Positions 45,557 through 55,591 of a stretch of DNA of 64,000 nucleotides are shown piece after piece. The translations under genes were made by a program, and so were the position numbers. The notes under the pieces were generated by a model. The model saw nothing but the letters and a program-made list of their open reading frames with translations. It searched no databases and had not been told where the DNA came from. Numbering within the stretch: the first letter of the stretch is position 1; each line of letters opens with the position of its first letter. Source of the DNA: Longimicrobiales bacterium (GTDB lineage: Bacteria > Gemmatimonadota > Gemmatimonadetes > Longimicrobiales > Gaopeijiaceae); assembly GCA_958296005.1 (NCBI GenBank), contig CATQHQ010000001.1:884134-948133 (forward strand), written 5' to 3'.

Positions 45557-46726
45557 ATGTCCGGCACCAGCCAGTTTCGAGTCTACTTGTGTGGCCCCAT
45601 CAGCGGTTGCACCGACATCCAAAAGCACAAATGGCGGGACGACGTCAAGAAGAAGTACGGCAAGTACTTCGACTTCATCGACCCCACCGACGAGCTGCTG
45701 GACCACGAGGCCAGCTCGGCCGAGTTCGTCGATGCCGATCTGCGCGCCGTCGAGAGTTCGTCGGGGCTCCTCGCCAACATGTGGCGCGAGTCGATCGGCA
45801 CGGCTCTGGGGCTCGTCCACGCCAGTCGCGTAGGAAGACCCGTGGTGCTTGCGGACCCCAACTTCCTGCGCCACCGCATGTTGCAGTTCTACGCCGACGC
45901 CGTGGCGGACACCGTTCCCAAGGCGGCAAAGGCCCTCCTGGCTCTCCTCCGCGCCGAGGCCGGCTGGCTGGTGCTCAAGTCGGACGGACGCCAGGAACCC
46001 TTTGCCCGCCAGAAGATCATATCCTCGGTTGGACGCATATGCAGAAGGGAAAGGCAGGACGACATCGTCGTACCGCGGCTCGTCCTCGCCGACGTGATCA
46101 CCGAACTGGAGCGGAGCGACCGCTGGGTGGGAAACGCCGTCGGCTCCACGGAGATCGACCAAGCGGTCTTGAAGATACTTCGTCGCCGCCAGCGGCAGCG
46201 GGACCCTGCCTTCGCCAGCTTGGCGACGGCATGGCGCCGGCGCAACGACGATCCCGCACCGTTCCCACGTCGCGTCCATCCGTCGCGCCAGCGGTCCCTG
46301 GTCCGCGACAGCCCAGGAGTCTCCGGTCCCGTCCAGGTGCCCGTCTCCTGCGGATCCAAGGCCCACTCCACAATCTGGGGCAAGACCGTGCGCCGGCTCG
46401 ACGACATACCGTCCGCCGCCGCCCGCCAAGTCTTCCGAACCGTCGTCGCGGTCCCGGGCATCACGCGGGTTTCGCTGGGGCCCTTCAGCCGCGGCGAAAC
46501 CCGAGCCTCGTGCTGCGCGACCGTGGCAGCGTCCCCAACTCCCTTCGTCCTCGAAGGCAAGCTCTTTGACGCAGGCGAGAAGGGGACCTTGCAGACCTTT
46601 CAGGTTCACGTTCAAGCCGACGCCGAGAAGGAGAGGATCGCCTCGGCAGTCGCCATGGCGCTCGCGGCTCGCGGCCTTTCGAGCGAGTCCACCGTCAACC
46701 CGCCACGCCAGCCAACGACTTCATGA
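45557..46726 (+). CDS. Multidomain protein: nucleoside 2-deoxyribosyltransferase-like N-term, ATP-cone-like middle, HST-motif (DUF2103-like?) C-term
   Basis: FRVYLCGPISGCTDIQKHKWR...SSGLLANMWRESIGTALGLVHASRVGRPVVLAD; then WLVLKSDGRQEPFARQKIISSVGRICRRE...EIDQAVLKILRRR; then GSKAHSTIWGKTVRRLDDIP...PGITRVSLGPFSRG. Confidence 0.72.
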   Translation: MSGTSQFRVYLCGPISGCTDIQKHKWRDDVKKKYGKYFDFIDPTDELLDHEASSAEFVDADLRAVESSSGLLANMWRESIGTALGLVHASRVGRPVVLADPNFLRHRMLQFYADAVADTVPKAAKALLALLRAEAGWLVLKSDGRQEPFARQKIISSVGRICRRERQDDIVVPRLVLADVITELERSDRWVGNAVGSTEIDQAVLKILRRRQRQRDPAFASLATAWRRRNDDPAPFPRRVHPSRQRSLVRDSPGVSGPVQVPVSCGSKAHSTIWGKTVRRLDDIPSAAARQVFRTVVAVPGITRVSLGPFSRGETRASCCATVAASPTPFVLEGKLFDAGEKGTLQTFQVHVQADAEKERIASAVAMALAARGLSSESTVNPPRQPTTS

Positions 46727-49700
46727 AGCGACCCGACTCACGTCCTGACGTATTTCTGCGCGCCGCTGTCCTTGCCGTCGCCCTAGCGGGTTCCGCGGCT
46801 GCCGTTACAGCGCTTTCGACCGATCTCGCCGCCCAAGGAGTGACCACAGGCGCGGTTGGCGGATTCGTGTACGACGAAGACGGCCAGCCGCTGGCCGGCG
46901 CCTCCGTGACCGCCGTGCATCTGGAGTCCGGCGCCCGCTACTCTGCTGTCAGCAGGCCGGGCGGCGCCTTTGATCTTCCCAACATGCGCGTGGGCGGACC
47001 GTACACCGTCACCGTCGAGTTCATCGGGTTCGGCGCTCGGTCGGAGGAAGACGTCTTCGTTCTGCTGGGGCAAACCGTGCGGATCGACTTTCCGCTCGCG
47101 ACCGAGGCCGTGCAGCTCGAGGGAATCGAAGTGGTGGCGACCGGCGAGGCCGCCCTGGAAGCCGGGCGCACAGGGGCCGCCACGTCGATCGACGCAACCC
47201 AGGTAGCCACGCTGCCTTCCGTGAAGCGCACGATCCGCGACCTGATCCGCACGGACCCCCGCAACGACGGCAACTTGGCGTTTGCCGGCCGCAACTGGCT
47301 CTTCAACAACGTCTCCCTCGACGGCTCCTACTTCAGCAACCCCTTCGGTCTCGACGATCCGGCGCCCGGCGGCCAAGCCAACGCCGAGCCCGTCCCCTTC
47401 AACGCCGTCGAGCAGGTGCACGTCTCGGTAGCGCCCTTCGACGTGCGGGAAGGGGGGTTCACCGGCGCCAACGTCAATACCGTCACCAAGAGCGGCACCA
47501 ACGAGTTCCGCGCTTCCGCCTACACGTTCACGCGCAACGAGTCGCTCATCGGCAACAAGATCGACGGCGCCACCGTGTCTGCGCGCCCGAACCTGTCGTT
47601 CAACCAGTCGGGGATCACGCTCTCGGGCCCGATCGTCCGCGACCGGCTGCTGTTCTTCGTGAACGCCGAGATCGAGCGGCGAGACGACGCGGGCTCCGAC
47701 TTCGTGGCCGACCGGGACGGCGTGCTGGAGCTGGGTGAGTCGCGGGTGCGCGCCGACGTAATGGACGCAATCCGCGAGCGGATGATCTCCGCCTACGGCT
47801 ACGACCCCGGCCCCTACGAGGACTACGTTCACGCGACCGACAACGACAAGCTGCTGGCCAAGATCGACTGGAACGCCAGCGACCGTCAGCACCTGACCGT
47901 CCGATACAGCTACTTGGACGCCACCCGGGAACAAGGCCCGCATCCGTTCGCCCTCAGCTTCAACAACGCGGGACGCGGTCCCAACGCGGCGTCCCTTCCA
48001 TTCCGCAACGCCGGCTACGCGATCAACAACAACCTCCATTCGTTCGCCGTGGAGCTGAACAGCCGGGGCGACAGCTACGCCAACCGCTTCTTCGCCAGCT
48101 ACAACCGCTTCCGCGACCTTCGCTTCCCCTTCAGCGAGGACTACCCCACGATCCAGATCGGCGAAGGCGGAATCGGCTACACGACCTTGGGCCACGAGCC
48201 CTTTTCCATTCACAACATAGTGCACCAGAACGTCTATCAGTTCACCAACAACCTCACCTACTACAGGGGCAGACACGCCCTGACGGCCGGCGCCAACTTC
48301 GAGTACTTCGGTTTCGTCAACTCCTTCAACCTCTTCCGTCACGGCCTCTTCTTCTTGCCCCACTTCCTGCCCATCGGCTCCACGTTCTCGTCGTTGGACG
48401 ACTTCTTCGCCGCTACCGAGGGCGGCGCCAAGGACTTCGCGAGCATGATCGGGACCGGGCCGTACAAAGGCGAGAGGCCCGGCGTGGGTCAGCTGTCCCT
48501 TTACGCCCAGGACGAGTTTCCGGTCGGCGCCAACCTCAACCTGACCGCCGGGCTCCGGGTCGACATGCCGATCTACTTCAGCGATCCCGTGGACAACCCC
48601 TACTCTCGGTCCCTCATGGCGGCCGACCAGTACGGGAACCCGGAGACCGTGGACCAGAGCGCGCTCCCCGGCGCCACGCCGCTCTTCTCGCCGCGCCTCG
48701 GCTTCAACTGGGACATACGCGGCGACGGTTCGACTCGCCTGCGCGGGGGAACAGGCATCTTCACCGGCCGCATCCCTTTCGTGTGGTTCGGAAACGTTGT
48801 CTCGAACCCCGGCGCCAACCCCAACATCTGGTCACCTGGAAACAACGTTCCGCAAGTCGAGGTTAGGGAGAACACGGTTCTGCAGCAGACGTTCGACTTA
48901 AACGCTATGGACCCGGACTTCACGTGGCCGCAGGTATGGGTTTCCGACATCGCCGTGGACCACGAGATCGTCGAAGGACTGGAGGCCACGACGGAGCTCG
49001 TCTACGGCAACGACATCAACGCCGTCACCGTCCGCAACGCCGACCTGCGCCCCCCTATGCGAACGCTGCGGGACGGACGGCCCTACTACGGAGGCTCCGG
49101 CGCCAACGAACGCAACGCCGACGGCGGGGCGGGCATCTACGTCTTGGACAACACGAGCCAAGGCTACAACGTCAGCGTGACCGCGCAGCTGCGCAAGACT
49201 CTCGCGGACGACGGCGCTGCCTCGCTCGCCTACGCCTTCACCCACGCCAAGAACACGATGAAGACGACCGAGATCGCGTCGCTCATGTGGCAGAACCTGC
49301 CGGTGCAGGGAGATCCCAACAATCCGCGCCTCTCATGGTCGGAGTTCAGCCCCAGGCACCGAGTGCTGGCGACGGCCACGTACACGCACACCTGGTCCGA
49401 GCGGTTCGCGACCCACATCGGCGTCTTTGCGGAAGCGGCCCAGGGCGGACGCTTCACGGCGGCGGGCGGCAACCGCTTCTCCTTCGTCTACGCCGGCGAC
49501 GTGAACGGCGACGGATACGGCGGGAACGACCTGATCTACGTGCCCCTGCACCAGAGCGAGATCAACTTGGCAGACCCCACCCAATGGGCGGCGCTGGACA
49601 GCTTCATCGAGCAGGACGCGTACTTGAGCCGCAACCGGGGCCGCATCTCGGAGCGGATGGGTGCGCTGGCGCCTTGGTTCGCCGGCGTGGACGTGCGCAT

Positions 49701-49959
49701 CCTGCAGGACATCGCCATCGGGCGCCAGATCGTGCAGCTGAGCGTGGACGCCCTCAACGTCGGCAACCTTCTCAACAGCGCCTGGGGGGTGCGCAAGATC
49801 GCCAACCCGTCGGCAACCTCGCCGCTGCGCCTCGTCGAGTTCAACCAAAGCGGCGAGCCCGTGTTCGACTTCACCGCGCCTGCGGAGACGTTCATGCCCG
49901 ACCCCGGGGTGTTCTCTCGGTGGCGGGTCCAGTTGGGCGCGCGGGCGATGATCCGCTGA
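46723..49959 (+). CDS. Oar-like TonB-dependent outer membrane receptor with carboxypeptidase-regulatory-like domain
   Basis: TTGAVGGFVYDEDGQPLAGASVTAVHLESGARYSAVSRPGGAFDLPNMRVGGPYTVTVEFIGF; FDVREGGFTGANVNTVTKSGTNEFRASAY; ATGA overlap with preceding gene. Confidence 0.93.
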   Translation: MKRPDSRPDVFLRAAVLAVALAGSAAAVTALSTDLAAQGVTTGAVGGFVYDEDGQPLAGASVTAVHLESGARYSAVSRPGGAFDLPNMRVGGPYTVTVEFIGFGARSEEDVFVLLGQTVRIDFPLATEAVQLEGIEVVATGEAALEAGRTGAATSIDATQVATLPSVKRTIRDLIRTDPRNDGNLAFAGRNWLFNNVSLDGSYFSNPFGLDDPAPGGQANAEPVPFNAVEQVHVSVAPFDVREGGFTGANVNTVTKSGTNEFRASAYTFTRNESLIGNKIDGATVSARPNLSFNQSGITLSGPIVRDRLLFFVNAEIERRDDAGSDFVADRDGVLELGESRVRADVMDAIRERMISAYGYDPGPYEDYVHATDNDKLLAKIDWNASDRQHLTVRYSYLDATREQGPHPFALSFNNAGRGPNAASLPFRNAGYAINNNLHSFAVELNSRGDSYANRFFASYNRFRDLRFPFSEDYPTIQIGEGGIGYTTLGHEPFSIHNIVHQNVYQFTNNLTYYRGRHALTAGANFEYFGFVNSFNLFRHGLFFLPHFLPIGSTFSSLDDFFAATEGGAKDFASMIGTGPYKGERPGVGQLSLYAQDEFPVGANLNLTAGLRVDMPIYFSDPVDNPYSRSLMAADQYGNPETVDQSALPGATPLFSPRLGFNWDIRGDGSTRLRGGTGIFTGRIPFVWFGNVVSNPGANPNIWSPGNNVPQVEVRENTVLQQTFDLNAMDPDFTWPQVWVSDIAVDHEIVEGLEATTELVYGNDINAVTVRNADLRPPMRTLRDGRPYYGGSGANERNADGGAGIYVLDNTSQGYNVSVTAQLRKTLADDGAASLAYAFTHAKNTMKTTEIASLMWQNLPVQGDPNNPRLSWSEFSPRHRVLATATYTHTWSERFATHIGVFAEAAQGGRFTAAGGNRFSFVYAGDVNGDGYGGNDLIYVPLHQSEINLADPTQWAALDSFIEQDAYLSRNRGRISERMGALAPWFAGVDVRILQDIAIGRQIVQLSVDALNVGNLLNSAWGVRKIANPSATSPLRLVEFNQSGEPVFDFTAPAETFMPDPGVFSRWRVQLGARAMIR

Positions 49960-53350: not shown

Positions 53351-53434
53351 CGGAGGCGGAGGGACTCGAACCCCCAAGTGCTTGCGCACGCCGCATTTCG
53401 AGTGCGGTGCCTTACCAATTAGGGCTACGCCTCC
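53351..53434 (-). tRNA. tRNA-Ser(CGA)
   Basis: Complement GGAGGCG...CCGCA-CTCGAAA-TGCGG... variable arm GTGCGCAAGCAC ...GGTTCGAGTCC...CGCCTCC. Confidence 0.93.
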
Positions 53435-53454
53435 CAAAGCGTCGTGGAGCAAAA

Positions 53455-53528
53455 TCGGGGCGCCCGGATTCGAACCGGGGACCTCTGCGACCCGAACGCA
53501 GCGCTCTACCGGACTGAGCCACGCCCCG
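53455..53528 (-). tRNA. tRNA-Pro(CGG)
   Basis: Complement CGGGGCGTGGCTCAG...CTGCG-TTCGGGT-CGCAG...GGTTCGAATCC...CGCCCCG. Confidence 0.95.
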
Positions 53529-53558
53529 ATGAAGTTGATCTGACTAGAACCGCGCTCA

Positions 53559-53674
53559 CGGACGGGGTGGGATGGGTCGGCTTTGCCGGCCGTCTCCGGG
53601 GTTCGGTCCTGGTGGCCCGACCCCCTTCGGCTCGAAAGATCGAATCCCACTCCCCCCGTTTCGCTGGCGCTCAA
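53559..53674. repeat. 116-bp inter-tRNA element, copy 1 (flanked by copies of the tRNA-Ser(GGA) 3' end)
   Basis: cggacggggtgggat at 53559 recurs exactly at 53675 (period 116); interior matches copy 2 at 97 of 116 positions by hand count. Confidence 0.85.
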
Positions 53675-53759
53675 CGGACGGGGTGGGATTCGAACCCACG
53701 CGGGCAAGATGCCCACACGATTTCCAGTCGTGCGCCTTAAGCCACTCGGCCACCCGTCC
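53675..53759 (-). tRNA. tRNA-Ser(GGA)
   Basis: Complement GGACGGGTGGCCGAGTGG...CACGA-CTGGAAA-TCGTG...GGTTCGAATCCCACCCCGTCC. Confidence 0.95.
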
Positions 53760-53775
53760 TTGTTCTCGGCTTCAG

Positions 53776-53891
53776 CGGAGGGAGTGGGATGGGCCGGCGT
53801 TGCCGACCGTCTTCGGGGGTCGGTCCTGGCGGCCCGACTCCCTTCGGCTCGAAAGATCGAATCCCCCTCCCGCCACTTCGCTTCGCGTCAG
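53776..53891. repeat. 116-bp inter-tRNA element, copy 2 (flanked by copies of the tRNA-Ser(GCT) 3' end)
   Basis: cggagggagtgggat at 53776 recurs exactly at 53892 (period 116); same length and order as copy 1. Confidence 0.85.
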
Positions 53892-53976
53892 CGGAGGGAG
53901 TGGGATTCGAACCCACGTGGCCCAATGGACCAACGCCTTAGCAGGGCGCCGCTTTTAGCCGCTCAGCCATCCCTCC
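53892..53976 (-). tRNA. tRNA-Ser(GCT)
   Basis: Complement GGAGGGATGGCTGAGCGG...GCGCC-CTGCTAA-GGCGT...GGTTCGAATCCCACTCCCTCC. Confidence 0.95.
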
Positions 53977-53979
53977 AAG

Positions 53980-54052
53980 TAGCCCCGCCTGGGCTCGAAC
54001 CAGGACTCTTCTGATCCAGAGTCAGACGTGTTGCCAGTTACACCACGGGGCT
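53980..54052 (-). tRNA. tRNA-Gln(CTG)
   Basis: Complement AGCCCCGTGGTGTAACTGGC...TCTGA-CTCTGGA-TCAGA...GGTTCGAGCCCAGGCGGGGCT. Confidence 0.93.
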
Positions 54053-54067
54053 ATCAAGCTGCTTCAG

Positions 54068-54140
54068 AGCCACCGGTCGGACTCGAACCGACGACCCCGT
54101 CATTACGAGTGACGTGCTCTACCAGCTGAGCTACGGTGGC
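54068..54140 (-). tRNA. tRNA-Thr(CGT)
   Basis: Complement GCCACCGTAGCTCAGCTGG...CGTCA-CTCGTAA-TGACG...GGTTCGAGTCCGACCGGTGGC. Confidence 0.95.
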
Positions 54141-54197
54141 GATCTTCTCCTTGGGTTCGCAAGGACCCACTCCGGCCCGACGCGCGGGACTCGAAAG

Positions 54198-54270
54198 TGG
54201 AGCCGAGGGGAGTCGAACCCCTGACCTCAGCGTTGCGAACGCTGCGCTCTCCCAACTGAGCTACGGCCCC
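54198..54270 (-). tRNA. tRNA-Ala(CGC)
   Basis: Complement GGGGCCGTAGCTCAGTTGGGAGAGC...CAGCG-TTCGCAA-CGCTG...GGTTCGACTCCCCTCGGCTCC. Confidence 0.95.
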
Positions 54271-54282
54271 GGAAACCAGAAG

Positions 54283-54356
54283 TGGGCGCGACAGGACTCG
54301 AACCTGTGACCTCCACGATGTCAACGTGGCACTCTAACCAACTGAGCTACGCGCCC
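54283..54356 (-). tRNA. tRNA-Val(GAC)
   Basis: Complement GGGCGCGTAGCTCAGTTGG...CCACG-TTGACAT-CGTGG...GGTTCGAGTCCTGTCGCGCCC. Confidence 0.95.
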
Positions 54357-54401
54357 GGCCAAAACCCAACGCTCCCACTTCCTCCGCCCCCGCATCCCAA
54401 A

Positions 54402-54475
54402 TGCGCCCGGGAGGACTCGAACCCCCAACCCCCTGATCCGTAGTCAGGTACTCTATCCAATTGAGCTACGGGCGC
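54402..54475 (-). tRNA. tRNA-Arg(ACG)
   Basis: Complement GCGCCCGTAGCTCAATTGG...CCTGA-CTACGGA-TCAGG...GGTTCGAGTCCTCCCGGGCGC. Confidence 0.95.
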
Positions 54476-54480
54476 TCGGA

Positions 54481-54564
54481 TGCCCACGACAGGACTCGAA
54501 CCTGTACGTCCTTTCGAACACTGGTCCCTCAAACCAGCCTGTCTACCAATTCCAGCACGTGGGC
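54481..54564 (-). tRNA. tRNA-Leu(GAG)
   Basis: Complement GCCCACGTGCTGGAATTGG...CTGGT-TTGAGGG-ACCAG... long variable arm ...GGTTCGAGTCCTGTCGTGGGC. Confidence 0.95.
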
Positions 54565-54585
54565 AAGCTTCCGTTCCGGCTCAAA

Positions 54586-54670
54586 TGCTCGGGGAGGGAC
54601 TCGAACCCTCACGGGGTTAACCCCCACAGGATCCTGAATCCTGCGCGTCTACCAATTCCGCCACCCGAGC
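54586..54670 (-). tRNA. tRNA-Leu(CAG)
   Basis: Complement GCTCGGGTGGCGGAATTGG...CAGGA-TTCAGGA-TCCTG...GGTTCGAGTCCCTCCCCGAGC. Confidence 0.95.
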
Positions 54671-54696
54671 TCGGCCGGTGTACCGGCCCGTCGCAG

Positions 54697-54769
54697 TGGA
54701 GCCGAGGGGAGTCGAACCCCTGACCTCCTGAATGCCATTCAGGCGCTCTCCCAACTGAGCTACGGCCCC
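54697..54769 (-). tRNA. tRNA-Ala(GGC)
   Basis: Complement GGGGCCGTAGCTCAGTTGGGAGAGC...CCTGA-ATGGCAT-TCAGG...GGTTCGACTCCCCTCGGCTCC. Confidence 0.95.
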
Positions 54770-54831
54770 AGCAGTGCGAACGCGAGCCTACAACTGCTCC
54801 ACGACCCTGATTGTCAAAGAAACTCCAGCAG

Positions 54832-54906
54832 CGGGGCTGACGGGACTCGAACCCGCGGCCTCCGGTGTGACAGACCGGCACTCTAACCAAACTGAGCTAC
54901 AGCCCC
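54832..54906 (-). tRNA. tRNA-Asp(GTC)
   Basis: Complement GGGGCTGTAGCTCAGTTTGG...CCGGT-CTGTCAC-ACCGG...GGTTCGAGTCCCGTCAGCCCC. Confidence 0.95.
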
Positions 54907-54934
54907 AACTAGCGGGGTCCGTCCGGCGACCCCA

Positions 54935-55006
54935 TACCCTCACGGGGAATCGAACCCCGATCTCCACCTTGAAAGAGTGGTGTCCTGACCGTTAGACGAT
55001 GAGGGC
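54935..55006 (-). tRNA. tRNA-Glu(TTC)
   Basis: Complement GCCCTCATCGTCTAACGG...CCACT-CTTTCAA-GGTGG...GGTTCGATTCCCCGTGAGGG. Confidence 0.94.
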
Positions 55007-55043
55007 GCACCGTTGTTTCCCGGCAACCGCCTCCCGGCGACAG

Positions 55044-55117
55044 CAGGCCCGGAGGGACTCGAACCCCCAACCGCCGGTTTTGGAGACCGGTGCTCTACCA
55101 AATTGAGCTACGGACCT
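55044..55117 (-). tRNA. tRNA-Trp(CCA)
   Basis: Complement AGGTCCGTAGCTCAATTTGG...CCGGT-CTCCAAA-ACCGG...GGTTCGAGTCCCTCCGGGCCT. Confidence 0.95.
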
Positions 55118-55128
55118 TTGGCTCTGAA

Positions 55129-55201
55129 TGGCCAGGGACGGAATTGAACCGCCGACACCGCGATTTTCAGTCGCGTGCTCTACCAACTGAGCTACCTGGC
55201 C
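55129..55201 (-). tRNA. tRNA-Phe(GAA)
   Basis: Complement GGCCAGGTAGCTCAGTTGG...CGCGA-CTGAAAA-TCGCG...GGTTCAATTCCGTCCCTGGCC. Confidence 0.95.
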
Positions 55202-55224
55202 CTGGACTCCTAGGGACCCGCCGA

Positions 55225-55247
55225 CAAAAAACCGACCGAGTCCGGTC
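55225..55247 (-). terminator. Candidate Rho-independent terminator downstream of initiator tRNA-Met
   Basis: Minus strand GACCG-GACT-CGGTC hairpin followed by GGTTTTTT. Confidence 0.45.
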
Positions 55248-55359
55248 CGGCGACGGAACCCGAAGGTTCCCCGCCAGCGGCTTGGCCGGCTTACGCCGAA
55301 ACCGCCGCCCGAAGGCGACGCTCCCGGAGCGCCTTTGGGATATGTGTCCGTTGGAGTCA

Positions 55360-55433
<74 letters not shown>

Positions 55434-55591
55434 ATAGGACGGTAATGATAGGAAGACTGCCACCGGGCGTCAACGGGCGGAACCGCGCCTGCCAACCCCT
55501 CGCCTCCCACCGTTCCTTGCGCGGCGGGTTACCTTGAGAAGAAAGGGTCAGGGGCGCATCCCCAAGCCAACCGAACGGGAGCACGGTAACG

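Follow-up and report, generated by a model that had tools for sequence, protein, structure and literature searches.

A protein joining a nucleophile-less NDT/DNPH1-fold domain, an ATP-cone and a basic C-terminal domain, and its possible role as a nucleotide-pool sensor

One gene in the window (i.e., the whole 64,000-nucleotide stretch of Longimicrobiales DNA analysed here) appears to join a nucleoside deoxyribosyltransferase (NDT)-like domain, an ATP-cone and a third, C-terminal domain, which raises the questions of whether such a fusion is a genuine protein and, if so, what it might do. Its open reading frame of 389 amino acids contains the motifs quoted in the earlier note, which had proposed this architecture. 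Full-length orthologs occur in two genomes, each of another genus of the same family, at 51% (G070) and 48% identity (G275); together with the window copy, these are the only fusions known. Over the whole gene and for all ortholog pairs, divergence at codon position 3 (0.50–0.53) exceeds that at positions 1 and 2 (0.32–0.43), while the linker between the ATP-cone and the C-terminal domain is the sole poorly conserved segment. The full-length orthologs and the excess of third-position changes identify the gene as real and under selection, and it encodes a genuine three-domain protein: the proposed architecture is borne out by the open frame, the orthologs and the domain matches detailed below. 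The expectation that this architecture was unreported also stands, insofar as our literature searches, of incomplete coverage, found no published account of the combination. The features of the locus are listed in Table 1.

Table 1. Coordinates of the fusion gene, its domains and related features (window positions unless another locus is named).
Feature	Position	Strand	Evidence
Fusion gene: NDT-like domain, ATP-cone, C-terminal basic domain	45557..46726	+	Open frame, 389 aa plus stop; full-length orthologs L004, L005
NDT/DNPH1-fold domain, residues 5-133, nucleophile lost	45569..45955	+	Sub-cutoff Pfam in all orthologs; PHROG 5781, E 8e-5; PDB profile matches MilB, Rcl/DNPH1
Asp61, counterpart of DNPH1 acid/base Asp80, retained	45737..45739	+	Alignment-invariant; aligned to DL motif of Rcl
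Gly85, where catalytic Glu is expected (DNPH1 E104, MilB E103)	45809..45811	+	Gly in 3/3 fusions, Glu in 11/11 stand-alone relatives
ATP-cone, residues 139-231	45971..46249	+	PF03477; alignment to S. coelicolor NrdR 7p37
Linker, variable, basic	46250..46342	+	Identity 17-25% between orthologs vs 37-64% in domains
C-terminal domain, residues 263-375, alpha-beta4-alpha, basic	46343..46681	+	A2 profile; AlphaFold2 pLDDT 84.9, pTM 0.81; also in L011
TonB-type receptor gene, ATG overlapping fusion stop (ATGA)	46723..49959	+	Sequence; same order in G070, TGATG overlap
Second architecture: YaaA/DUF6884-like domain, C-terminal domain	L011 601-1827 (G053)		

Taken alone, the N-terminus of the window protein stays under the Pfam cut-off (PF05014, E = 0.11); those of the orthologs score better (PF15891, E = 1e-4; DUF4406, 22.1 bits vs a cut-off of 22), and a PDB search with a profile that included stand-alone relatives retrieved MilB as the best match (E = 4.6e-5) along with Rcl/DNPH1 (E = 6.7e-5). 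The orthologs and the PDB matches thus uphold the NDT-like assignment made from the single sequence, although a model of the full-length fusion is poor across this part. In this enzyme family, a Glu (E104 in DNPH1, E103 in MilB) is the nucleophile that forms a glycosyl-enzyme intermediate, and D80 is the acid/base Asp of DNPH1 (PMC10603095). The catalytic Glu of the SxGTxxE motif is absent from all three fusions, which carry Gly85 in its place. The Glu is kept by all 11 stand-alone relatives used for comparison, which are of bacterial, plasmid (one), phage (one) and viral-contig origin. A stand-alone NDT-like relative of Edwardsiella phage vB_EpM_ZHS (L024) is encoded close to a DNA polymerase gene and to 7-deazaguanine (queuosine-type) genes. 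Invariant among the fusions are Tyr10, the acid/base Asp61, the phosphate-loop Ser79 and the loop NMWRESIGT. With the Ser and the Asp retained and the Glu replaced by Gly, the NDT-like domain is probably a pseudo-enzyme that binds a nucleotide but does not cleave it; the invariance of the NMWRESIGT loop is more readily explained by a (predicted) binding site that has been kept than by decay.

The main rival to a sensory role is that the fusion is an active N-glycosidase or transferase gated by ATP or dATP, which would use a non-canonical nucleophile (e.g., Glu78) or proceed with no covalent intermediate, its ATP-cone serving as allosteric switch. Such an enzyme would make use of the conserved Asp61, Tyr10 and Ser79 as well as of Glu78, which is nearby and likewise invariant, and it has a precedent in ribonucleotide reductase (RNR), where the ATP-cone regulates an adjacent catalytic module. 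Nevertheless, Glu78 adjoins the phosphate-loop Ser, away from the position of the nucleophile, and catalysis in this family proceeds through a glycosyl-enzyme intermediate formed by the Glu (PMC10603095), a residue replaced by Gly in each fusion; we therefore consider an active enzyme unlikely. For the same reason, the link to nucleoside turnover drawn in the earlier note is weakened, while the other half of that proposal, a nucleotide-pool sensor, holds up.

In the window protein, PF03477 scores 34.6 bits (37.2 bits in a whole-genome search) against a cut-off of 25.8, narrowly passed by the orthologs (26.1 and 26.0 bits). NrdR and the ATP-cone of NrdB rank first in a Foldseek search with the model, in which no match passes E = 0.001; the profile and the ranking bear out the ATP-cone predicted for this segment. 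RNR and NrdR are the best-known carriers of ATP-cones. The alignment to NrdR of Streptomyces coelicolor (7p37) equates Val139, Lys141, Glu147, Phe149 and Lys153, all invariant in the three fusions, with NrdR V48, K50, E56, F58 and K62, respectively, while an equivalent of NrdR R51 is not kept. The inner nucleotide bound by S. coelicolor NrdR is contacted by K50, R51 and E56, the outer by K62; nucleotide binding is impaired when V48, K50, E56 or K62 is mutated (PMC9110341). From these conserved contact residues we infer that the fusion's cone binds ATP or dATP at a site of the NrdR/RNR type.

The fusion is not itself an NrdR. It lacks the Zn-ribbon (the CxxC pairs and the Arg-rich motif), scoring 13 bits with TIGR00244 against a cut-off of 124.65, and its genome encodes a separate, true NrdR (L001) with both Zn-ribbon and Arg-rich motif. 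These two proteins are the only ones in that genome with an ATP-cone: none was detected in the sole RNR found there (G000:C2:515520). In the sequence upstream of the fusion gene, a screen with a crude consensus brought up no NrdR box that was convincing.

The C-terminal domain is 47–53% identical between the fusion orthologs. In addition, it ends a protein of another genome (L011 of G053), where it shares 28% identity with the window copy; this fourth member was also found independently, in a search started from the single window protein (E = 6.2e-7). A confident AlphaFold2 model built from the four sequences consists mainly of a helix, four strands and a second helix. Every one of the four is basic (pI 9.5–11) and, even though a basic pI is a weak pointer to nucleic-acid binding, contact with nucleic acid or another polyanion appears the most likely function of the domain. 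No significant Pfam match was obtained. A resemblance to DUF2103, which the earlier note had called less secure, did not reach significance: PF09876 matched one of the four members, partially though in register, with 12.7 bits against a cut-off of 22.4 (E = 0.12). No other Pfam lead came from a natural sequence, and this one is too weak to establish the identity of the domain; members of the DUF2103 family were not found in 150 genomes of the phylum. Matches to SPOR and Mak16 arose with an artificial consensus sequence only and were discarded. Searches of the PDB and BFVD with the model gave no confident match, the one viral protein at probability 0.99 having E = 0.017 and TM scores of 0.48/0.57.

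The fusion is sporadic, occurring in 3 of 121 genomes of its family, and it was not found elsewhere among the 395 genomes of the phylum sampled. Across 394 genomes of the class, the C-terminal domain gave only four strong matches; weaker ones in G411 and five other genomes (E = 0.002–0.007) can be put down to chance, given the number of genomes searched. Other phyla were scanned by exact peptide patterns only, which diverged copies there would escape. In the phage, plasmid and viral collections, we found neither the fusion nor the C-terminal domain, the searches returning stand-alone NDT-like proteins only. This sporadic spread, and a C-terminal module swapped between partners, would suit a role in conflict or defence, with the C-terminal domain as an effector set off when phage infection alters the nucleotide pool; indeed, domains of the NDT-like and YaaA/DUF6884-like kinds are met repeatedly in the context of phages and conflict systems. 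However, the fusion matched no family in PADLOC-DB, its neighbours look like housekeeping genes with no defence gene seen among them, synteny is stable across two genera, and no homologue of the fusion was found in the phage, plasmid and viral collections. The role in phage defence that had been entertained earlier is, therefore, without support, and we regard it as very improbable.

Immediately downstream lies a gene for a TonB-type outer-membrane receptor, whose start codon overlaps the stop codon of the fusion in both the window and G070, so arranged that the two are likely co-translated. The flanks are alike in these two genomes, with flanking proteins 75% identical. In G189, the receptor and a divergent neighbour of the same type are present with no fusion between them; hence, one lineage acquired the fusion gene or the other lost it. 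The G275 copy has a different neighbourhood and sits among genes that, judged by eye, resemble those of the lipid-A type. Some 7 kb downstream of the fusion, the window also carries a dense array of 17 tRNA genes, all on one strand (53351-55434, minus strand).

The overlapping codons and the shared flanks could mean that the fusion, translationally coupled to the receptor, tunes nutrient uptake to the nucleotide pool, and the lipid-A-type genes beside the G275 copy would also be compatible with a regulator linked to the envelope. Yet the neighbourhood in G275 is unlike those of the window and G070, the G189 receptor and its neighbour do without the fusion, and TonB-type receptor genes are so abundant in each genome of this family that adjacency to one may be chance. 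We hold this explanation to be quite unlikely; nor, since the neighbourhood is not kept in G275, does the genomic context point to nucleotide metabolism.

We tentatively propose, rating it at somewhat less than an even chance, that the fusion is a soluble nucleotide-pool sensor or regulator in which the basic C-terminal domain is under the control of the ATP-cone and the pseudo-NDT domain. ATP or dATP would be taken up by the cone at its NrdR/RNR-type site, while the nucleophile-less NDT/DNPH1-fold domain would probably hold, but not cleave, a nucleotide resembling a nucleoside monophosphate, and may also supply the dimer interface usual for its family. Changes of oligomeric state dependent on these ligands would then switch the alpha-beta4-alpha domain, with contact to nucleic acid or another polyanion as the most likely output. 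A bolder version, which we find doubtful, would set the fusion apart from NrdR as a new class of regulator of the nucleotide pool: its DNPH1-type domain, catalytically dead, would sense a nucleoside monophosphate and the cone on the same polypeptide ATP/dATP, and between them they would govern a basic domain, unknown until now, that YaaA-like proteins use as well. If true, the combination of an ATP-cone, a nucleophile-less glycosidase fold and an orphan basic domain would constitute an independent means of reading the dNTP/NTP balance, and the C-terminal domain would be an uncharacterised module swapped between nucleotide-related partners.

Each part of the fusion has its counterpart among known systems. 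Like NrdR, it joins to another domain an ATP-cone with equivalents of V48, K50, E56, F58 and K62, and the proposed nucleotide-driven change of oligomeric state would be a further likeness; unlike NrdR, it has no Zn-ribbon, but an NDT-like domain and a C-terminal domain of a novel kind. With the RNRs that carry an ATP-cone it would share the use of the cone as an adenine-nucleotide switch, but the fusion has no reductase domain and its cone lies in mid-chain. DUF2103 is similar to the C-terminal domain in length, with only the non-significant, partial match in register described above. The YaaA/DUF6884-like protein of G053 has the C-terminal domain in common with the fusion, whereas its N-terminal partner is YaaA-like, and neither the NDT-like domain nor the ATP-cone was detected there. 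Finally, DNPH1/Rcl, MilB and the stand-alone PF05014, PF15891 and DUF4406 proteins share with the fusion the fold, the YLxGPxxG motif, the acid/base Asp and the SxGT phosphate loop, but the fusion differs from all of them in having a Gly for the catalytic Glu and in the addition of an ATP-cone.
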